Below, in pieces: positions 25,683-35,966 of a stretch of DNA of 64,000 nucleotides (position 1 is its first letter; every line of letters begins with the position of its first letter). The DNA comes from Clostridia bacterium. GTDB lineage: Bacteria; Bacillota; Clostridia; Christensenellales; Aristaeellaceae. The translations under genes were made by a program, and so were the position numbers. Under the pieces are notes generated by a model. The model saw only the letters and a list, made by a program, of their open reading frames with translations. It was not told the DNA's origin and made no database searches. The stretch is taken from NCBI GenBank assembly GCA_017431005.1, contig JAFRLY010000004.1, positions 1-64,000 of the forward strand. The letters are read 5' to 3'.

Positions 25683-27284
25683 ATGAGACAGCTGCTCAAA
25701 GGCGCAAAAATCTACGACGGCACCGGTTCCGACCCGTATATCGGGGATATTCTGATTGAAGGCGATGAAATCGCCATGATTGCCCCCGAAATCAGCCTGC
25801 CGGCGGACAGCGTAATCAATCTGGCGGGGAAATCCGTTTCCTCCGGTTTTATTGACGGCCACTCCCATAACGACTGGTTCGCCATCAAAAAAGATCCGCT
25901 CCCCTACTTCTGGCCCTTTATCCGTCAGGGGATCACCACCTTTGTGACCGGCAACTGCGGCATTTCCGTCGTTGGCTTCGAGCCCGGGTGCGGCTGGATG
26001 GAGCATATGGGCGGCGGTCTCTTCGGCTTTGAGAACACCGTGGGCTGCTACGGAACCGCTAAGGAATATTTCAACGCCATGGACCGCCGGATGCCCTGCA
26101 ACATGGCGCTGCTTGCCGGTCACTGCACCGCCCGGGCCGCTGTGGGCGGGACTGAAAACCGGAAGCTGACCCCTGAGGAAGAGGAAAAGATGCTGGCCAT
26201 TCTCGAAAAAGCCCTGCAGCAGGGCGCCGCCGGCATTTCCCTGGGCATGATGTACAATCCCGGGCTGTACGCGGATGTGGAGGAGCTGAAAAAGGTCGCC
26301 GCCCTGTGCGTCCGGTACAACAAGCCCCTGACCGTGCATCCCCGGGCCGAATCCAAGGTTTCCATGGCCTATCCCCAGCTGCTGGGCAGGTCCCACCTCC
26401 TGCGGGCGGTGGACGAACTGGTGGAGATCGCCAAGGGCACGAATCTGAAGCTGCATTACTCCCATGCCATCTTTGTCGGCCGGAATTCCTTCAGGGATAA
26501 GGAAGAGCTGATGCGGATCTTTGATCAGCTCCGGGCGGAAGGCGTGGACGTCATGTTTGATATCTACAATGAATGCCTGGGCGTTTCGGTTATCACAGTG
26601 ATTCTGCCGGCCTGGTATCAGGGGATGTCCGAAGCGGAAAGGAAGAAGCCGCTGAACCGCCTGAAGCTGGCCGTGCTGGTGAAGGCCTCCAGCCTGCTGC
26701 TGGGCTTCGGGTTCAGGGATATCCAGATCGCCTATATCGGCCCGGGATACGAAAAGTACGAGGGCAAAACCGTCCACGAAATCGCCGTGGAGGAAGGAAC
26801 CAGCGACCTGAAGGCCTATCTGAAGCTCTGCGATCTCAGCCGGTTCGTCGGCCGCGTCAATATGGGGCCTTATTCCACTCCGGAAATCATCTCCGAGTTC
26901 GAGCACAACGAGCACTGCCTGTATATGACGGACGCGTGGGTGGAGGAGCACGGCATCCAGAATCCGGCGATCTATGACTGCTATCCCAAGTTCCTGCGGG
27001 ATTCCCTGCGGGGCACCGGTGATACTCTGCCGAATACCATCCGCCGCATGACCGGCGCCATCGCGGACCGCTTCATGCTGCAGAAGCGCGGTTACCTGAA
27101 GGAAGGGTACTTCGCGGATCTGACCGTCTTTGACGAGGAGGCGCTGAAAAACGGCGTCCCGGATCAGGAAAAGCCCTTCGGCATTGAAAAGGTCTTCATC
27201 AACGGACAGCTGGTGCTCAGTGACAGCCAGCTGGATGAGGCGGCCCTGAAGCAGACCGGGCGTACGCTTCCCGTTTTCAACTGA
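25683..27284 (+). CDS. Amidohydrolase, N-acyl-D-amino-acid deacylase family
   Basis: The 533-residue protein belongs to the D-aminoacylase branch of the amidohydrolase superfamily. The metal motif is FIDGHSHNDWFAIK (HxH near residue 63), followed by VTGNCGISVVGFEPG, LAGHCTARAAVGG, MMYNPGLYADVEELK, LHYSHAIFVG and the C-terminal ADLTVFDEEAL typical of the group. These enzymes deacylate N-acyl-D-amino acids or open cyclic amides in the cytoplasm. No signal peptide is seen. It is followed after 31 bases by the MsrA-SGNH fusion, probably on the same transcript. The substrate is unknown. Confidence 0.9.
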   Translation: MRQLLKGAKIYDGTGSDPYIGDILIEGDEIAMIAPEISLPADSVINLAGKSVSSGFIDGHSHNDWFAIKKDPLPYFWPFIRQGITTFVTGNCGISVVGFEPGCGWMEHMGGGLFGFENTVGCYGTAKEYFNAMDRRMPCNMALLAGHCTARAAVGGTENRKLTPEEEEKMLAILEKALQQGAAGISLGMMYNPGLYADVEELKKVAALCVRYNKPLTVHPRAESKVSMAYPQLLGRSHLLRAVDELVEIAKGTNLKLHYSHAIFVGRNSFRDKEELMRIFDQLRAEGVDVMFDIYNECLGVSVITVILPAWYQGMSEAERKKPLNRLKLAVLVKASSLLLGFGFRDIQIAYIGPGYEKYEGKTVHEIAVEEGTSDLKAYLKLCDLSRFVGRVNMGPYSTPEIISEFEHNEHCLYMTDAWVEEHGIQNPAIYDCYPKFLRDSLRGTGDTLPNTIRRMTGAIADRFMLQKRGYLKEGYFADLTVFDEEALKNGVPDQEKPFGIEKVFINGQLVLSDSQLDEAALKQTGRTLPVFN

Positions 27285-27315
27285 GCGATTCAACCGTGAA
27301 AGGACGTGATCTTGC

Positions 27316-28563
27316 GTGAAAACTATTTATCTGGCAGGCGGCTGTTTCTGGGGCACGCAGAAATTTTTTGACCAGTTCGAAGGCGTATCCGAAACGGAAA
27401 CCGGCTACGCCAACGGACCGGACCGGGCGCCCAGCTATCAGGAGGTATGCCGGAACAGCGGCCATGCGGAAACTGTACGGATTGTTTATGATGAATCCCG
27501 GATTTCCCTGACGGAGCTGCTGAAATACTACTTCATGGTCATCGACCCCCTGTCCGTCAACCGGCAGGGCCATGACACCGGCATCCAGTACCGGACCGGC
27601 ATCTACTACACCGATCCCTCCCAGCTGCCGGAAATCGAGGCGGTTTACCGGGCGGAGGAGGAAAAAGCCGGGGCGAAGCTGGCCGTGGAGCTGCTCCCGC
27701 TGCAGAATTTCTTCCCGGCTGAGGAATACCACCAGAAATACCTGGATAAGAACCCCGGCGGCTACTGCCATATTCCCGGCAGCTATCTGCATCTGAAGCA
27801 GGCAGAAAAGCCCCGCCTCCGCTGGTGCGCCATCGGGGATTCCTTTACCTATCTGAACGATCACCTGGATGAAACGGGGCACCGGGTCACCCGGGGCTAC
27901 CTGGACCGGATTCATGATCAGCTTTCCGGCCTTGTCCTGCGGAATATCGGCATCAACGGCTCCACCTTCCGGGACTGGATTGACCAGGAGATTCCGGAGG
28001 CGGATCTGTACACCGTGCTGCTGGGGACCAACGACTGGCATCAGGGATATCCCCTGGGCACGGAAGCGTCCTTCCGCGGCCGGCAGGCGGGAACGATCCT
28101 CGGTCATCTCGGAATCCTGCTGGATCATATCCGGGCGGCAAACCCGAAGGCGATGATCCTCGCCGGCAACCCGGTGGAACGGGCGGATTTCGTCTATCTT
28201 TTCGACCCGGAAAACAACGCCCCCGGCAGCTACGCGCCGGAGCACGGCCAGCGGCTTTCGGACGTGGCCTCCGCCATCCTGGCCTGCTGCGCCCTGGAAG
28301 GCGTTCCCACCGTCAACTGCCACGACTTGTCCGGCTTCACCCAGGATCGGCTGATCCGCTTCAAGCGCGTCACCCGGGAAAACGGCACGGAGGACCTGCC
28401 CTATCCGGATTACATCGGCATTCCCTTCACTCCCGGCCGGGATGTCTATCCCTATCCTCCCGAAGCAGCAGCCCTGACTTACGACGGACTGCACCCCACC
28501 GATGAGGGCTGTCAGATTCTGGCGGATCTCTTCGCGGCGGAAATCCGGAAGCTGATCGGGTGA
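27316..28563 (+). CDS. Fusion of methionine sulfoxide reductase MsrA with an SGNH/GDSL hydrolase
   Basis: The single 415-residue frame contains two complete enzymes. Residues 1-160 are MsrA: AGGCFWGTQKFFD with catalytic Cys10, ETGYANG, NSGHAETVRIVYD, QGHDTGIQYRTGIYY and a C-terminal GGYCHIPGSY. From about residue 168 an SGNH hydrolase follows: CAIGDSFTYLND with Ser176, the NGST oxyanion glycine region, LLGTNDWHQG with Asn239, and YDGLHPTDEG with Asp390 and His393. All catalytic residues are kept in both parts. GTG 27316 is the start, with AAAGGA upstream. No signal peptide is seen, so it is cytoplasmic. MsrA reduces oxidised methionine; the hydrolase would act on an ester or acyl group. This pairing is unusual. 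Confidence 0.9.
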   Translation: MKTIYLAGGCFWGTQKFFDQFEGVSETETGYANGPDRAPSYQEVCRNSGHAETVRIVYDESRISLTELLKYYFMVIDPLSVNRQGHDTGIQYRTGIYYTDPSQLPEIEAVYRAEEEKAGAKLAVELLPLQNFFPAEEYHQKYLDKNPGGYCHIPGSYLHLKQAEKPRLRWCAIGDSFTYLNDHLDETGHRVTRGYLDRIHDQLSGLVLRNIGINGSTFRDWIDQEIPEADLYTVLLGTNDWHQGYPLGTEASFRGRQAGTILGHLGILLDHIRAANPKAMILAGNPVERADFVYLFDPENNAPGSYAPEHGQRLSDVASAILACCALEGVPTVNCHDLSGFTQDRLIRFKRVTRENGTEDLPYPDYIGIPFTPGRDVYPYPPEAAALTYDGLHPTDEGCQILADLFAAEIRKLIG

Positions 28564-28716: not shown

Positions 28717-30354
28717 TTATTTCACGATTTCCTTGTTCAGGTAGTTTTCATAGACCCGGGAATAGATTTCAATGGCTTTTTCGATGCCCATCCTGTCGAT
28801 GGTATTGAACAGCTCATCAATTGCGGCCTCGTCCTTGTTGCCGATGACAACGGACAGGAAAGTTTCGGCAATGGACGTGTTGACGTCATTCATGATCATG
28901 GTATAGGTTTCAGCATCCTCACCGGTCAGCAGGATGTTGGGTATGATCAGATCCTTGTCCGCACTGTAGTTGTATTCCAGCTCACGCTGTCCGTCTTCAT
29001 GAGAGCAGTCCACGGTCATCCATGCTTCCAGGTCCATGATCTTGGGGAACTCACCGCGGGTGGGAATGCAGTACTGCATGACGGTGTCGGAGGAAAGGCC
29101 GCCTTCGTTGTTCAGCACGACTTCCTTCCATACCTTGTTTCCGTCGGCGTCATAATCGAAGGATACACCTTCCACGCCCCAGGAGATCAGAGTGGTGCCT
29201 TCCTCGGAATACATGTAATTGAACAGCTCCAGGATCTTGTCCACCTTGCCTTCCTTCACAGCAGCGGAGGTAATGGCATTCCCTTCGGCGGCGGCAGCCC
29301 AGTTCTTCAGGTTAACGGCCTGGGTATAGCGCTTTGCATCCGCGCCTTCTGCATACACATAGGGGAAACGGGGCAGGGGCTCCAGCTTCACAGCGCTGCT
29401 GTCTGCGTAGGAAGCAACGGTATCCTTCAGCAGGGTGTAATAGCCGGGGAAGCGGTTGGTGTTGGTGTGCCAGAAGCCCTGGATATCAGAGGTGACCTGC
29501 GAGTTGATCTCCGTCTGGGTGTTGGAAGTGAAGGAGGGATCGATCAGGCCCTCAGCATACCACTGGCGCATGGTCATGGCGAAATCGCGGAAGTTTTTCC
29601 CGTCATTGATTTCCGTCCAGTAGGTTACTTTGCCGGTTTCAGGATCCAGCTGAGGATAGTTGTAGATCAGTCCCCAGGCAGAACCCAGTTCCTTGATCAG
29701 ATTCAGGGTAACGCGGTCAGACATGGGGATTTCATCATTGGGATCGCCGTTGCCATTGGCATCCTGCTCCTTAAAGGCAACCAGCGCGTCATGCAGCTCG
29801 TCAATGGTCTTGGGTACTTCCAGGTTCAGACGGTCCAGCCAGTCCTTGCGGATGGCATAACCGGAATAAGCATTGCGGGCGGTGGATTCCTCAACGTGGC
29901 AGAAGGCGGCGATGGAACCGTCTGTCAGAACCAGCGCACGGTTGATGTACTCATTGTTTGCGATCAGGTTATAGTAGTTGGGCACCTTTTCCTGAAGCTC
30001 GGACATGGGAAAGGACTGAACCAGACCATCCTCTATGGCAGCCTCGATTCCGCCGGAATAGTTGGACCAGTTCCAGGAAATGATATCCGGATAGTCACCG
30101 CCGGAGATGTTCAGATTGACGACGTTGTCATAGTTGTCGGTGGAGTTGACGGAAATAAACTCGAATTTCACGTTGAGGCGGGCTTCGAGCTCCTTGACCC
30201 AAAGCGCATCATACCAGTGGTCCAGCCCTGAAACATCCCAGGCCTGATGCAGCCAGGTAATGGTGGTGGGTTCATCGGCCGCAGCCGCGGGAGCGATGAC
30301 CAGCACGCTTGCCAGCAGAGCGAGCGCGCAGATGAGAGACAGAAGCTTCTTCAT
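28717..30354 (-). CDS. Extracellular solute-binding protein of a carbohydrate ABC importer
   Basis: The 545-residue protein starts with a signal peptide (MKKLLSLICALALLASVLVI, cleavage near APAAA-ADE) and then TTITWLHQAWDVSGLD, the usual start of family 1 sugar-binding proteins of the LplA type. No lipobox cysteine follows the hydrophobic core, which is unusual for a Gram-positive binding protein that needs anchoring. It is the last gene of a three-gene operon with two permeases, driven from about 32.35 kb. Regulation by the adjacent LacI protein and linkage to GH95 suggest that the cargo is a fucosylated oligosaccharide (inference). No ATPase gene is present; a shared MsmX-type ATPase is likely. 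Confidence 0.88.
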   Translation of the reverse strand: MKKLLSLICALALLASVLVIAPAAAADEPTTITWLHQAWDVSGLDHWYDALWVKELEARLNVKFEFISVNSTDNYDNVVNLNISGGDYPDIISWNWSNYSGGIEAAIEDGLVQSFPMSELQEKVPNYYNLIANNEYINRALVLTDGSIAAFCHVEESTARNAYSGYAIRKDWLDRLNLEVPKTIDELHDALVAFKEQDANGNGDPNDEIPMSDRVTLNLIKELGSAWGLIYNYPQLDPETGKVTYWTEINDGKNFRDFAMTMRQWYAEGLIDPSFTSNTQTEINSQVTSDIQGFWHTNTNRFPGYYTLLKDTVASYADSSAVKLEPLPRFPYVYAEGADAKRYTQAVNLKNWAAAAEGNAITSAAVKEGKVDKILELFNYMYSEEGTTLISWGVEGVSFDYDADGNKVWKEVVLNNEGGLSSDTVMQYCIPTRGEFPKIMDLEAWMTVDCSHEDGQRELEYNYSADKDLIIPNILLTGEDAETYTMIMNDVNTSIAETFLSVVIGNKDEAAIDELFNTIDRMGIEKAIEIYSRVYENYLNKEIVK

Positions 30355-30436
30355 TAAGGATAACCTCCTTTTTTTATTTGCTCACGGTTTATCGGCCGTG
30401 CAGCGATCAATTCAGTTACCGGCGCTGTATCCGCTG

Positions 30437-31351
30437 TTACCCTTTTACTGCGCCGATCATGACACCTTTGGTGAAAAACCGCTGAATAAAGGGATACACG
30501 CACAGAATCGGTACGGTGGAAACAACAATGACGACGTACTTCAGCAGCATATTGTTCAGTTCAGTCTGCAGGTCCTGTCCTCCGGTAACTTCAACAGCTT
30601 CACCCTGAATCAGAAGCGCGCGCAGCACCATCTGCAGCGGCATCAGCTTTTCATTGCGGATGTACAGAAGGGCGGAGGACCAGGCGTTCCAGTGGCCGAC
30701 GGCGTAGAACAGCGCTACAGTCGCAACGGAAGGAATGATCAGAGGCACGCAGATCGTAAAGAGCACCCGCAGATCACCCGCTCCGTCAATTCTGGCGGAT
30801 TCCTCCAAGGAATCCGGAATGCCGTAGAAGGCGGTGCGCAGGATGATGCAGTTATAGGTGCTGATCAGTCCGGGAATGATCATGGCCCAGACCGTGTCAT
30901 ACAGCCCGACGGCCTTTACAACCAGATAGGTCGGGATCATCCCTCCGGAGAAGTACATGGTGAATACGGCCAGGCCCGTGATCAGCTTATGCCACAGAAG
31001 ATCCCTCCGGGACAGGACAAACGCGAACAGGATGGAAAAAAACATGTTCAGGCCAGTGCCCACGATGACAACGAAGAATGTGACCAGATAGGAGCCCCAG
31101 AGCCGTTTGTAGTTCAGCACTTTTTCATAGCCGCCCAGGGAAAAATTCAGCGGGAAAAGCAGGATGCCCTTATGGCGCATCAGCATGGACGGATCCGAGA
31201 AGGAACAGCACAGCACATACCACAGCGGATATATCATCAGAAGGCACAGAAGACCAAGGCCGATGACGTTGAAAGTATCAAACACATGGCTTCCCAGGGA
31301 AATCCTGCCATAGTTCCACTGGTCGGAAGCGCATTTGCGCGGCTTCATCAT
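30437..31351 (-). CDS. Carbohydrate ABC transporter permease, MalG/LplC type
   Basis: This 304-residue inner permease has six predicted membrane segments and the CUT1 EAA loop (DSLEESARIDGAGDLRVLFT), which contacts the ATPase. The N-terminal region ends in a conserved hydrophobic entry (FNVIGLGLLCLLMIYPLWYV). GAGGAGGGAAGAA before the tandem ATGATG supports ATG 31351 rather than the upstream GTG. It follows the first permease after only a few bases and precedes the binding-protein gene by about 80 bases. It would form a heterodimeric channel with that neighbour. Confidence 0.92.
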   Translation of the reverse strand: MMKPRKCASDQWNYGRISLGSHVFDTFNVIGLGLLCLLMIYPLWYVLCCSFSDPSMLMRHKGILLFPLNFSLGGYEKVLNYKRLWGSYLVTFFVVIVGTGLNMFFSILFAFVLSRRDLLWHKLITGLAVFTMYFSGGMIPTYLVVKAVGLYDTVWAMIIPGLISTYNCIILRTAFYGIPDSLEESARIDGAGDLRVLFTICVPLIIPSVATVALFYAVGHWNAWSSALLYIRNEKLMPLQMVLRALLIQGEAVEVTGGQDLQTELNNMLLKYVVIVVSTVPILCVYPFIQRFFTKGVMIGAVKG

Positions 31352-31362
31352 TTCTTCCCTCC

Positions 31363-32325
31363 TCACCAAAGCGATATATCGGATGCTCTGCGGCTGATGG
31401 CATTGAAGATCACCAGCAGCAGGATGTTGACCGCGTTGTTGAACAGGTCCACAGCAGCAGAATAACTGTAGTTGCCGCCCAACATGCCGTAACGGTAAAC
31501 AAAGGAGGAAAACACATCGGCACGCTCCAGCACGGCATCGTTGTACAGCAGGATGATTTTTTCATAGCCGATGGACATCATGGAACCGACCTTCATCAGA
31601 AGCAGGAGGATGATGGTAGGCAGGATACCGGGGACGGTTACGTGCAGAATGCGCTGAAAGCGGTTGCAGCCGTCGATGGCGGCGGCGTCAAAGAGCTCTA
31701 CATTGATGGCGGACAGGGCGGCCAGATACACAATCGTGTTGTAACCCAGGTTCTGCCATACATCGGAAAAAACATAGATCCAGGGAAAGTACTCCGGAAT
31801 GTTGCTGAACGCGACGGGGCTTTTGCCGAGGAGACCGAGAATCTGGTTGAACAGGCCGTTATAGGAGAGAAGGTTCAGCACGATACCGCAGGCAACCACC
31901 AGAGAAACGAAATGCGGCATATAGGTTACGGTCTGCACAACACGTTTATAGGCGGAGCTGCGGACCTCGTTGAGCAGCAGCGCCAGGAGGATCGGAAGCG
32001 ATGAGCCGATGATCAGGCTCAGCAGATTGATTGTCAGGGTATTCCGCAGAAGGCGGGGAAAATAGTAACTGGAGAAAAACTGCTCAAACCATTTGAAGCC
32101 TACCCAGCTGCTGCCCCACAGGCCTCGCGCCGGGCGGTAGTTTTTAAAGGCAATCGCCAGGCCGCCCATCGGCGCATAACGGAAAATGAAGTAATACGAC
32201 AGACAAAGCAGGGCAATCAGGTAAATGACCCAATTCTTGCGGAAATCCGTGGCAGCCCTCTGCCGAAAGGATTTCCTGGGTAGAATGACGGCTGAAGGCA
32301 TCCGTCCGGCTACCTGCTTTTTCAT
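31363..32325 (-). CDS. Carbohydrate ABC transporter permease, MalF/LplB type
   Basis: This 320-residue protein is the partner permease. Six membrane helices are visible, with the EAA-like loop in NVELFDAAAIDGCNRFQRIL and the LplB-type N-terminus (YLIALLCLSYYFIFRYAPMG, GLAIAFKNYRP). GGAGGCACGCGT before ATG 32325 fits the start. It is the first gene of the operon. The leader contains a LacI-type operator (32386-32397) and a second half-site near 32358, so transcription should be controlled by the adjacent LacI regulator. Confidence 0.93.
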   Translation of the reverse strand: MKKQVAGRMPSAVILPRKSFRQRAATDFRKNWVIYLIALLCLSYYFIFRYAPMGGLAIAFKNYRPARGLWGSSWVGFKWFEQFFSSYYFPRLLRNTLTINLLSLIIGSSLPILLALLLNEVRSSAYKRVVQTVTYMPHFVSLVVACGIVLNLLSYNGLFNQILGLLGKSPVAFSNIPEYFPWIYVFSDVWQNLGYNTIVYLAALSAINVELFDAAAIDGCNRFQRILHVTVPGILPTIILLLLMKVGSMMSIGYEKIILLYNDAVLERADVFSSFVYRYGMLGGNYSYSAAVDLFNNAVNILLLVIFNAISRRASDISLW

Positions 32326-32353
32326 ACGCGTGCCTCCGTGAACGTAAAAAAGT

Positions 32354-32397
32354 ATATCGTTTCGTATTATTTGCAACTTATTAACCGTAACGTTTCG
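32354..32397 (-). promoter_or_regulatory. LacI-type operator region of the transporter operon
   Basis: CGTAACGTTTCG at 32386-32397 matches the 12-bp palindrome in front of GH95 at 11 of 12 positions. A half-site CGTTTCG lies at 32358-32364, next to a -10-like TATACT (minus strand). Both are in the leader of the first permease gene, about 60 and 30 bases before its start codon. I could not place a matching -35 with confidence. Confidence 0.7.
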
Positions 32398-32491
32398 CTT
32401 TTAAAATATCATAAACCCCGTCCGTTGTCAACAGCATTTGGTAAAGAACGGCGTATTTTGCCTCTTTTTTTAAAACTGACCTGAAAGCAGT

Positions 32492-32522
32492 AAAAAAAAG
32501 GCGCTCCGGAAAGCGGAACGCC
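32492..32522 (-). terminator. Terminator of the lacI-type gene
   Basis: On the minus strand, GGCGTTCCG pairs with CGGAGCGCC (one G-T pair) around a short loop (32500-32522) and is followed by eight T. It lies 20 bases after the regulator stop. Confidence 0.8.
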
Positions 32523-32541
32523 TACAGATGAAAGAACGGGT

Positions 32542-33573
32542 TCAGACGCGCTTAATGGAATTTCCGACGAAGAGCGTGGCAGGCAGAGTCCTTACCTGGG
32601 GAAGCGGAACACCGCCGCCGGTGCTGACCCGAAGCTGCTCGGACATAATCCGGGCGGCTGCGCTGCCGATCTGGGCAGTAGGCTGCAGCATGGAATACAG
32701 CTTCACGCCGTGCCCGTTTTCAGTTCCGACACCGTCAAACCCGACAACAGAAACATCGTCCGGTACGCGAAATCCTTCCGCTTCCAAGGCTTCCATGACG
32801 CGGGATGTCAGCCCGGAGGTGGCAGCAAACACAGCGGTAGGCCTGCACTGACGCAGCTTTTCCCGGATCAGCTCTTGAGAGGTGCGTTCTCTGGCTCCCC
32901 CCAAAAATACGATGCGGTCGCTGTCAACAGGGCAGCCGCGCTCGTGGAGCGCATCCACAAAGCCTTCAGCGCGGCGGCGGCCTGTATAGTTCGTTTCGCC
33001 ATGGAAAAAGCCCACAATGTTGCGATGTCCCGCATTGAGCAACTCATCAGCAGCAGTGCGGGCAGCGCCTACGTTATCAATGATCACAGAGCTCACACGG
33101 TCAGCCAGCTCAGGAATCTGCTTGTCGATCAGCGTAACAGGTATGCCCAGCTCAAGCGGCCTTTGCAGATGTACACCGTCCTCATTCTGGGGCAGGTTGA
33201 TAATACCGTCAACACCTTTTTGCAGCAGAAAATCCACTGCTTCCAGTTCTGTCCGGCGGCGGATGTCATCATCGCCCGGTACCGCGCAATAAAGCGCTGT
33301 GCCGTAGCCATCGGCTCGAAGCTCCAGCTGAATCTGCTGAATGATTTCCATAATAAAGCCGTTGGTCAGGGCGGGCATCAGCAAGCCCACATAGCCGGTG
33401 TGGCGGGTTTTCAGGTTCCGGGCAGTTTCGTTCACCTTGAAATCAAGGGCCTGAATGGCTTCCTCGATCGCCTCCCGGTTTTTCGGAAGCACATTTCCGC
33501 CGTTGATATATTTGGATATTGTGGCCAGCCCAAGCCCTGTGCGGCGGGCAATATCCTTGATTGTTGCGGCCAT
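32542..33573 (-). CDS. LacI family transcriptional regulator of the fucoside locus
   Basis: The 343-residue protein starts with the LacI helix-turn-helix (TIKDIARRTGLGLATISKYI, residues 4-23) and the hinge region KVNETARNLKTRHTGYVGLL. A periplasmic-binding-protein-like effector domain follows, with DGIINLPQ, VTLIDK, VVGFDGVG and the dimer tail. It is divergent from the GH95 gene; both promoters fit in the 135 bases between them, and a perfect 12-bp palindrome overlaps the expected GH95 start point. A near copy precedes the transporter operon. It most likely represses both until a fucoside or its breakdown product binds. Confidence 0.93.
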   Translation of the reverse strand: MAATIKDIARRTGLGLATISKYINGGNVLPKNREAIEEAIQALDFKVNETARNLKTRHTGYVGLLMPALTNGFIMEIIQQIQLELRADGYGTALYCAVPGDDDIRRRTELEAVDFLLQKGVDGIINLPQNEDGVHLQRPLELGIPVTLIDKQIPELADRVSSVIIDNVGAARTAADELLNAGHRNIVGFFHGETNYTGRRRAEGFVDALHERGCPVDSDRIVFLGGARERTSQELIREKLRQCRPTAVFAATSGLTSRVMEALEAEGFRVPDDVSVVGFDGVGTENGHGVKLYSMLQPTAQIGSAAARIMSEQLRVSTGGGVPLPQVRTLPATLFVGNSIKRV

Positions 33574-33606
33574 GCAGCACGCCTCCGTTGTTCAGAAGTT
33601 GTGATT

Positions 33607-33635
33607 ATTATGTCATATTTATGTGAAGCCGTCAA
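33607..33635 (-). promoter_or_regulatory. Promoter of the LacI-type regulator
   Basis: Minus strand: TTGACG (33630-33635), 17 bases, CATAAT (33607-33612). Its -35 abuts the -35 of the divergent GH95 promoter. Confidence 0.75.
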
Positions 33636-33636
33636 C

Positions 33637-33665
33637 TTGACACGAAAAAAAATGTGTGATACGCT
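33637..33665 (+). promoter_or_regulatory. Promoter of the GH95 gene
   Basis: A perfect -35 TTGACA (33637-33642) and TACGCT (33660-33665) are spaced by 17 bases. The -10 is weak, as expected for a regulated promoter. Confidence 0.65.
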
Positions 33666-33675
33666 GTTTTGTAGA

Positions 33676-33687
33676 CGAAACGTTTCG
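33676..33687 (+). promoter_or_regulatory. LacI-family operator of GH95
   Basis: CGAAACGTTTCG is a perfect 12-bp palindrome beginning 10 bases after the GH95 -10 box, hence over or just past the start of transcription, 20 bases before the start codon. It matches the LacI-family operator pattern with central CG. A near-identical copy lies at 32386-32397. Confidence 0.85.
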
Positions 33688-33707
33688 ACTTGTGGAGGAA
33701 CGTAAAT

Positions 33708-35966
33708 ATGAGAAGGCTGCATTATCATCAACCTGCTGCCTGCTGGAACGAGGCATTGCCATTAGGCAACGGACGTTTAGGCGCGATGGTTTTCGGCGGA
33801 GCGGCGCTGGACAGGCTTCAGATCAACGAGGATTCCGTATGGTCCGGTGGCTTTGAGAACCGCGTAAATCCGAGTGCCGGGGAAAAAATGCCGCTGCTGC
33901 GGGAACTGATCGCCCAGGGCCGGATCCGTGAGGCCGAGCAGCTTGCCCTGCGTGCTTTTACGGCTACAGGGGACAATGAACGGCATTATGAACCGCTTGC
34001 CGACGTCCTGCTGATGTTCCCGGAGAACGGCCCTGGCTTCAATCTACACAACGTCCGGAACCTGGCCGGCCAGGATATGAGGAAATGCACCCCGCCGGAA
34101 ACAGAGGCTTATGTCCGCAGCCTGGAGCTGGACACCGGGCTGCATCGGGTGAGCTACCGGCTGCATGGCAGGGACTTTTCCCGGGAGTGTTTCGTTTCAG
34201 CGCCGGATCAGGTGATGTGTGTAAGAGCTTCCGGAAATACTTTTGATGTGCTTCTGCGGCGGGGGATGCAGGTGGGCAGGCTCGCAGCGGCGGACGCGCG
34301 GACGGTGGTACTCAGCGGTGTAACAGCGAACAGAGGTATCAGCTATGCATGCGCGGTGCGCGTCATCCGGGGAGAAGCTGAGAAAATCGGCGCGACACTG
34401 TGCTGCCGCGGAGATAACGATCTGCTGATTGCCGGAGCCACAAGCTTCCGCTTCGCGGATCCGGTACAGGCAGCGCTGGATCTACTGGACGCTGCCGAAA
34501 AAAAAGGATATGACTTGCTGAAGCAGCGGCATCTGGCGGATTTTACGCCCATCATGGCCCGATGCGAGCTGCAGCTCGAGGAAGATGCTGCACTGGATGC
34601 GCTGCCGACGGACGAGCGGCTGCGGCACACGGTGGAAGGGGAGAATGATCCGGGGCTGATCAACACCTATTTCCAGTACAGCCGATACCTGCTCGTCTGC
34701 TCCAGCCGTCCCGGATCGCTGCCTGCTAACCTGCAGGGCATATGGAATCAGGAGTTTGAACCGCCCTGGGGCAGCAAATACACCATCAACATCAACACGC
34801 AGATGAACTACTGGCCGGCGGAAATCTGCAACCTTTCGGAAATGCATCTTCCTCTGTTTGAACATCTGAGGCGCATGCTTCCCCACGGCCGGGACGTGGC
34901 CCGTGAAATGTACGGAGCATCCGGATGGGTGGCGCATCACAACACAGATATCTGGGGCGACTGTGCACCGCAGGACAGCTATATCGCTTCAACCGTATGG
35001 CAGATGGGCGCCGCATGGCTGTGCCTGCATATATCCGAACATTACGAATATACCGGCGACCGGGCGTTTCTGCGTGAATACTATCCGATCATGAAGGAAG
35101 CCGCAGTGTTTTTTCTGGACACAATGACAGAAGACAGGGACGGCTGGCTTAGTGTGTCGCCTTCCTGCTCCCCGGAAAACACATACATTATGCCCGGAGG
35201 CGAACGGGGCTGCCTGTGCAGCGACGCGGCAATGGATACGCAGATCCTCAGAGAGCTTTTCAGCGCGGTTGTGCGCTGCGGCAGGGAACTGGGAGAGGAT
35301 ACTGCGGTCTTTGAAGCGGTGCTGCCCAGGCTTCGTCCCCTGAAGATTTCACCGCGCGGCACACTGATGGAATGGGGGCAGGACTACATGGAGGCCGAAA
35401 TCGGTCATCGTCATATTTCCCATCTGTTTGCGCTTCATCCTGGGAAGCAGATCATATGCGGTCAGCCAGAGCTCTTTGCAGCAGCGAACGCTACACTGGA
35501 GCGCCGGCTCAGCCACGGCGGCGGCCATACAGGCTGGAGCCGGGCGTGGATCATTAATTTTTACGCGCGTCTGCTGGACGGTGAAAAATGTTGGGAAAAT
35601 ATCATAGAGCTTCTGAAAAAATCCACGCTCCCCAACCTTCTGGATAATCATCCGCCGTTCCAGATCGACGGTAATTTCGGCGCCGCCGCCGGCATCGCGC
35701 AAATGCTCCTCCAAAGCCATGAAGGCGTGCTGCGCCTGCTGCCTGCGCTGCCGGAATGCTGGTGCGCCGGCACCGTGCGGGGGCTCAGAGCGAGAGGCGC
35801 TTATGAGGTGGATCTGCGGTGGGATCAGGGACGCCTGACAGAAGCAATGATTACAGCCGGAAGTGACGGTGTGCTGACGCTGGCCGACGGCCGGAGCATT
35901 GCGCACAGATCCGGTGACCGTATCCGTGTAACAGCCGAAAGGCTGATAATTGCAGGTAAACAATAA
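33708..35966 (+). CDS. Glycoside hydrolase family 95 (alpha-L-fucosidase)
   Basis: The 752-residue protein opens with the GH95 signature ACWNEALPLGNGRLGAMVFG and LQINEDSVWSGG. Further family blocks are NLQGIWNQEFEPPWGSKYTI, NTQMNYWPAEICNLSEMHLP, NTDIWGDCAPQDSY, the proline/serine block SVSPSCSPENTY, GGGHTGWSRAWIINFYARL and FQIDGNFGAAAGIAQMLLQS. GH95 inverts alpha-1,2-L-fucosyl linkages through an (alpha/alpha)6 barrel. There is no signal peptide, so the substrate must be imported, which fits the adjacent ABC importer. Start 33708 follows TGGAGGAACG. Some GH95 members act on L-galactosides, so fucose is the likely but unproven sugar. Confidence 0.94.
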   Translation: MRRLHYHQPAACWNEALPLGNGRLGAMVFGGAALDRLQINEDSVWSGGFENRVNPSAGEKMPLLRELIAQGRIREAEQLALRAFTATGDNERHYEPLADVLLMFPENGPGFNLHNVRNLAGQDMRKCTPPETEAYVRSLELDTGLHRVSYRLHGRDFSRECFVSAPDQVMCVRASGNTFDVLLRRGMQVGRLAAADARTVVLSGVTANRGISYACAVRVIRGEAEKIGATLCCRGDNDLLIAGATSFRFADPVQAALDLLDAAEKKGYDLLKQRHLADFTPIMARCELQLEEDAALDALPTDERLRHTVEGENDPGLINTYFQYSRYLLVCSSRPGSLPANLQGIWNQEFEPPWGSKYTININTQMNYWPAEICNLSEMHLPLFEHLRRMLPHGRDVAREMYGASGWVAHHNTDIWGDCAPQDSYIASTVWQMGAAWLCLHISEHYEYTGDRAFLREYYPIMKEAAVFFLDTMTEDRDGWLSVSPSCSPENTYIMPGGERGCLCSDAAMDTQILRELFSAVVRCGRELGEDTAVFEAVLPRLRPLKISPRGTLMEWGQDYMEAEIGHRHISHLFALHPGKQIICGQPELFAAANATLERRLSHGGGHTGWSRAWIINFYARLLDGEKCWENIIELLKKSTLPNLLDNHPPFQIDGNFGAAAGIAQMLLQSHEGVLRLLPALPECWCAGTVRGLRARGAYEVDLRWDQGRLTEAMITAGSDGVLTLADGRSIAHRSGDRIRVTAERLIIAGKQ

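Follow-up and report, generated by a model that had tools for sequence, protein, structure and literature searches.

Does the union of two unrelated enzymes in one reading frame reveal a pathway, or does it record an accident that the cell tolerates? The question is raised by a stretch of 64,000 nucleotides (nt) from a Clostridia bacterium of the Aristaeellaceae (assembly GCA_017431005.1, contig JAFRLY010000004.1, positions 1–64,000, forward strand), called the window below. A single uninterrupted frame on its plus strand (27316–28563) starts with GTG, has no internal stop and encodes 415 residues, in which methionine sulfoxide reductase A (MsrA) is followed by a hydrolase of the SGNH family. 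Fusions of MsrA with MsrB, thioredoxin (Trx) or glutaredoxin are well described in the available parts of two papers (PMC6211008, PMC8000184). The MsrA-MsrB and Trx-MsrA-MsrB proteins of Streptococcus (PDB entry 3e0m), Treponema (5fa9), Helicobacter (7e43) and Neisseria (PilB, 3bqe) contain an MsrA domain that is 48–54% identical to that of the window and is likewise joined to another enzyme domain. However, MsrA is joined in these proteins to a second Msr or to a reductant, so that a shared pathway is evident, whereas the partner in the window is an unrelated esterase. With a probability of about 0.7, we consider the in-frame fusion of the two genes to be genuine and specific to this lineage, and not to reflect an obligate partnership between MsrA and hydrolase. 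It is probably a tolerated accident of gene fusion rather than a new pathway.

Two complete domains in one frame

The MsrA domain comprises residues 1–162 (27316–27801, plus strand) and reaches the natural C-terminus seen in relatives. The Pfam family PF01625 (PMSR) matches residues 3–152 over its entire profile (1–153 of 153) with an E-value of 1.1e-56 and 191.7 bits, far above the curated cut-off of 23.7, and the sequence of PDB entry 3bqh matches residues 2–154. The catalytic Cys10 (codon 27343–27345) sits in the motif GCFWG. A C-terminal cysteine, Cys151, which we take to be the resolving one, lies in NPGGYCHI and aligns to NPNGYCHI of 3bqh in a script-checked numbering. In an alignment of 22 rows (21 same-genus loci plus the window), none of the 82 near-invariant positions (those identical in at least 95% of the remaining rows) is changed in the window protein.

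A short linker (residues 163–166, 27802–27813), which contains neither a stop codon nor ATG, GTG or TTG, leads into the SGNH hydrolase domain (residues 167–415, 27814–28560, plus strand), and the frame ends with TGA at 28561–28563. Nearly the whole model of PF13472 (Lipase_GDSL_2) is matched at residues 172–400 (E 6e-17), and the match to PDB entry 4q7q spans residues 167–412. SGNH blocks I, II, III and V are found as GDS (174–176), GINGS (212–216), GTND (237–240) and DGLH (390–393), and this half has the SGNH fold. Ser176 (27841–27843), Asn239 (28030–28032), Asp390 (28483–28485) and His393 (28492–28494) are invariant across 38 rows. None of the 61 near-invariant positions is changed in a set of 54 rows, with seven divergent rows (L128, L130–L135) removed before the count. 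Judged by these alignments, neither half is decayed. The first-pass annotation, made from the DNA letters, had described a complete MsrA and a complete SGNH hydrolase in one frame and had named these same residues as catalytic. The Pfam matches and a script check of all five positions agree with it.

The hydrolase half resembles CE3 and Axe2-type acetyl esterases (2vpt, 5b5s, 3w7v) in fold, at about 17–24% identity, which suggests an acetyl-esterase-like enzyme. The protein of 4q7q from Chitinophaga pinensis, a 'possible lipase' of the GDSL family whose records, as seen, state no function, is stand-alone, unlike the hydrolase of the window. Related Chitinophaga genes start with a hydrophobic, signal-like stretch. 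The fusion frame differs in beginning directly on the MsrA core, consistent with the lack of a signal peptide noted earlier, and a cytoplasmic location of the protein is plausible. The MsrA half of the fusion model is poor because the underlying alignment contained no MsrA rows, and the domain arrangement is not read from this model.

The in-frame ATG, GTG or TTG codons nearest to the hydrolase start are codon 124, within MsrA, and codon 234, within the hydrolase itself. With no ordinary start near its beginning, the hydrolase would be made only within the fusion unless a rare start codon is used, and can hardly be produced apart from it.

The joint between the domains

Could the assembler have joined two unrelated pieces? 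The pair is a singleton from a genome fragmented into 63 contigs, and its junction sequence has no match in the independent set searched, the viral contigs. Among plasmid records no place covers 80% of the fusion protein. When the window is split at ten other points, tetranucleotide correlations range from 0.946 to 0.984, and the 0.9455 obtained at the joint roughly equals the lowest of them; this value would fit an artefact but does not decide for or against a chimera. The main argument for a genuine joint is that it is in frame and fits the limits of both domains, the natural end of MsrA and the natural start of the hydrolase. Moreover, third-position guanine plus cytosine content is similar in the MsrA half (0.74), the SGNH half (0.78) and three neighbouring genes (0.78–0.81), and analogous joints with other partners exist in two other assemblies (see below). 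No second copy of either gene is found elsewhere in the genome: the fusion is its only MsrA match, beside one separate MsrB, and the hydrolase search returned one weak match (E 0.1). Since the genome is 85% complete, this absence is not proof. Synteny was uninformative as a chimera test, the window's neighbours being hardly present around either gene in 20 relative stretches compared. The fusion frame is confirmed as an observation and the joint looks real. A chimeric assembly is unlikely, and we give it very little credence.

The pair in related genomes

A search with the full-length protein finds the fusion in 1 of 45 same-genus genomes, the window's own, and in 0 of the other 44. The hydrolase has a strong match in eight of the 45, and six of these (G001, G002, G008, G014, G018 and G022) have msrA at a separate place. 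The matches in 396 genomes from the order include no second place where one open frame covers both halves. Matches that apparently pass the end of msrA at L048 and L053, and one running into the hydrolase half in G162 (L164), extend through a stop codon with poor alignment, the latter being a chance extension; with the hydrolase half alone as query, nothing credible appears in these three stretches. In these searches the two genes form a Rosetta-stone pair neither as a recurring fusion nor as adjacent separate genes. A comparison of relatives had been proposed with the original observation. In the genomes searched, no relative has the pair and the parts are separate, which weakens a functional link but leaves the reality of the frame untouched.

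We found no paper describing an MsrA-SGNH, NUDIX-SGNH or alarmone-synthetase-SGNH fusion in a coverage that mostly excludes subscription journals. The available parts of PMC3281104 describe no such fusion, and those of PMC9487903, on SGNH families, contain nothing about MsrA.

Some further observations on msrA were made in the relatives. At L011 (G003, 1273–1980) the frame opens with a lipoprotein-like leader (LSGC), followed by a full MsrA without its own start. About 40 residues after the leader resemble the start of a rhodanese by eye, and Pfam gives MsrA only (78–227); this MsrA is possibly exported. On G068:C9 an msrA (125181–125666) and a decayed msrA-like copy with several stops (127001–127504) lie about 1.3 kb apart. 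G062:C2 and G062:C9 give identical-scoring matches for both queries, which suggests a duplicated or doubly assembled stretch.

Other fusions of the hydrolase subfamily

Scanning the genome collection by means of an eight-row alignment and two short peptide patterns, a procedure that misses divergent members, gave 62 loci of the hydrolase subfamily. They are mostly from Clostridia, many with gut sources in their record titles. The few Bacteroidota among them have hydrolase copies that open with a hydrophobic stretch. At an E-value of 1e-30 or better, the hydrolase occurs in 7 of 397 genomes of the family of G805, three of the seven being already known, and in 1 of 391 genomes of a class sample, namely the window's own. 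The subfamily is small and patchily distributed.

Two further loci carry an enzyme fused to the N-terminal side of the hydrolase. At L078, on the same contig as G027, it is a NUDIX domain (Pfam run on L059), and at L121 it is a RelA_SpoT domain of the alarmone synthetase type. Both share the hydrolase subfamily and the boundary of the window fusion but differ in their N-terminal enzyme. Seven other same-genus genomes, including the window's, have separate genes with frames of 143–189 residues that are at least 56% identical to the NUDIX part. In the divergent Erysipelotrichaceae loci L134 and L135 the hydrolase has a long C-terminal extension, which in L134 (3980–5599) is DUF3737 (PF12541, 2.5e-103), a fusion at the opposite end; the L135 frame is equal in length. 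Of the remaining loci, two are partial (L136, L137), one has no called start (L113) and 55 were measured as free-standing; a loose pattern finds a Shine-Dalgarno-like site at 44 of these 55. Long frames also precede the hydrolase at L054/L098 (G215), L009/L095 (G058) and L092. We do not count these as fusions, since each hydrolase starts with an ATG of its own in the usual position, and what is read ahead of it looks like an empty frame, without any Pfam match in the case of L092.

In a tree of 61 rows the window hydrolase groups with the free-standing L079 (97/89), L078 weakly with the free-standing L080 (87/19), and L121 sits on a long separate branch. The fusion state requires three changes. 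A single clade for all three fusions is rejected by the approximately unbiased (AU) test (p 4e-6), as is one uniting the window with L078 (p 0.0017). Each of the three hydrolases has a different protein as its partner, which also argues for separate fusion events.

These results bear on whether hydrolase and MsrA share a molecule or a stress pathway, the fusion channelling or co-localising them. Both active sites are intact and free of decay. NUDIX and alarmone synthetase families are cytoplasmic housekeeping or stress enzymes, and such partners would allow a loose stress theme. But the pair is found nowhere else in the searches made, its genes are separate in six relatives, and the hydrolase has a mixed set of partners and neighbours (glycoside hydrolases, DnaJ, GDPD, a transporter, a regulator). 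We regard such a functional partnership as unlikely. The first-pass annotation had left two interpretations side by side, a tolerated accident and a joint substrate that is both acylated and oxidised. The absence of the pair in other genomes and the fusion of the hydrolase elsewhere to NUDIX and alarmone synthetase favour the former; the latter is unsupported, no recurring MsrA-SGNH pairing having turned up.

Genomic neighbours

In 25 of the 55 free-standing loci, a frame of 110 or more residues on the same strand ends within 70 nt of the hydrolase gene or overlaps it. Nineteen of these frames were scanned with Pfam; those of L077, L081, L098, L102 and L108, left out, resemble scanned ones by sequence, and that of L092, also left out, has 120 residues. 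Seventeen of the 19 matched, with 17 different architectures: BD-FAE esterase, glycoside hydrolase (GH) family 35, DHOdh, lactonase, MFS, ADP-ribosylglycohydrolase, ABC ATPase, DnaJ, GDPD, M14 peptidase, DUF6773, GH43, alpha-amylase, response regulator, GH88, GH106 and tricorn/S41. The upstream frames of L088 and L129 had no Pfam match and may be empty. Carbohydrate enzymes occur among these neighbours, yet they form no single pathway. Gaps in the matched cases are -8 to 59 nt, and at such distances a fusion by loss of one stop and one start would be easy. Tight gene spacing is common in bacteria, according to the part of PMC10666635 available, so the spacing alone is unremarkable and the variety of the neighbours is the remarkable part.

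The hydrolase might be a promiscuous C-terminal module that repeatedly relocates behind genes and is kept as a rider because it gains expression through fusion or tight coupling. Its three partners, each joined in an independent N-terminal fusion, the 17 upstream architectures and the patchy distribution would fit this, but most members are free-standing, many with a Shine-Dalgarno-like site, and close spacing is common anyway. It is a stronger form of our preferred explanation and compatible with it, and we offer it tentatively, as a minority possibility.

In the window, an amidohydrolase-family gene (25683–27284, plus strand) ends 31 nt 5' of the fusion; its best match, PRK09061, reaches 94.8 bits, under the model cut-off of 340. 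With the same strand and this short gap, the two genes are probably co-transcribed. A Shine-Dalgarno-like AAAGGA (27300–27305, plus strand), read from the sequence, lies 10 nt 5' of the GTG start. In the region 3' of the fusion (28717–35966), the opposite strand carries a frame resembling a solute-binding protein, for which Pfam gives no match at 0.001, and frames that look by eye like two permeases and a LacI-type regulator; beyond them lies a plus-strand GH95 glycoside hydrolase (PF22124, 1.2e-166). A sugar-use locus adjoins the esterase of the fusion.

Origin and meaning of the fusion

The preferred explanation, a genuine fusion without obligate partnership, implies the following course of events. 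An SGNH esterase gene of patchy distribution, which usually stands alone and has its own start, would have landed directly 3' of msrA, and loss of the msrA stop codon and the hydrolase start codon would have left one protein of 415 residues. Its MsrA half, with Cys10 likely resolved by Cys151, is predicted to reduce methionine-S-sulfoxide. The hydrolase half, with Ser176, Asp390 and His393 and with Asn239 in the oxyanion hole, would follow the usual acyl-enzyme mechanism to remove a short acyl group, most likely the acetyl group of a carbohydrate. We infer that both activities are retained; the domains probably function independently, side by side on separate substrates, with the hydrolase made at the level of MsrA.

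Several points weigh against this explanation. The comparators are weak, and a sound background rate is lacking for about three fusions in about 65 members, which could reflect selection rather than accident. One of 21 same-genus msrA loci (L010–L030), L011, also has no own start and is fused to other sequence, and 15 GDPD places have open frames of 240–333 residues for a 239-residue query; in the longest, the one frame inspected, no partner is evident, and the set is too small for a fusion rate. The pair is a singleton from an incomplete assembly (85%, 63 contigs) and could be local to one strain. The substrate suggested for the esterase draws on its fold and on some carbohydrate-enzyme neighbours. 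If selection were at work, the SGNH subfamily of gut Clostridia could be a C-terminal rider captured repeatedly, perhaps de-acylating proteins or metabolites in the stress responses of its partners, a speculative and rather improbable proposal.

Taken alone, the fusion could wrongly suggest that methionine repair and acyl hydrolysis are linked. A gene-fusion study warns, in the part available, that promiscuous domains mislead functional inference (PMC4921024), and this warning applies to the window fusion: since the promiscuity lies with the hydrolase, the pair should not serve to assign function. Three independent captures at one boundary make the subfamily a compact natural case of a gene becoming a fused domain.
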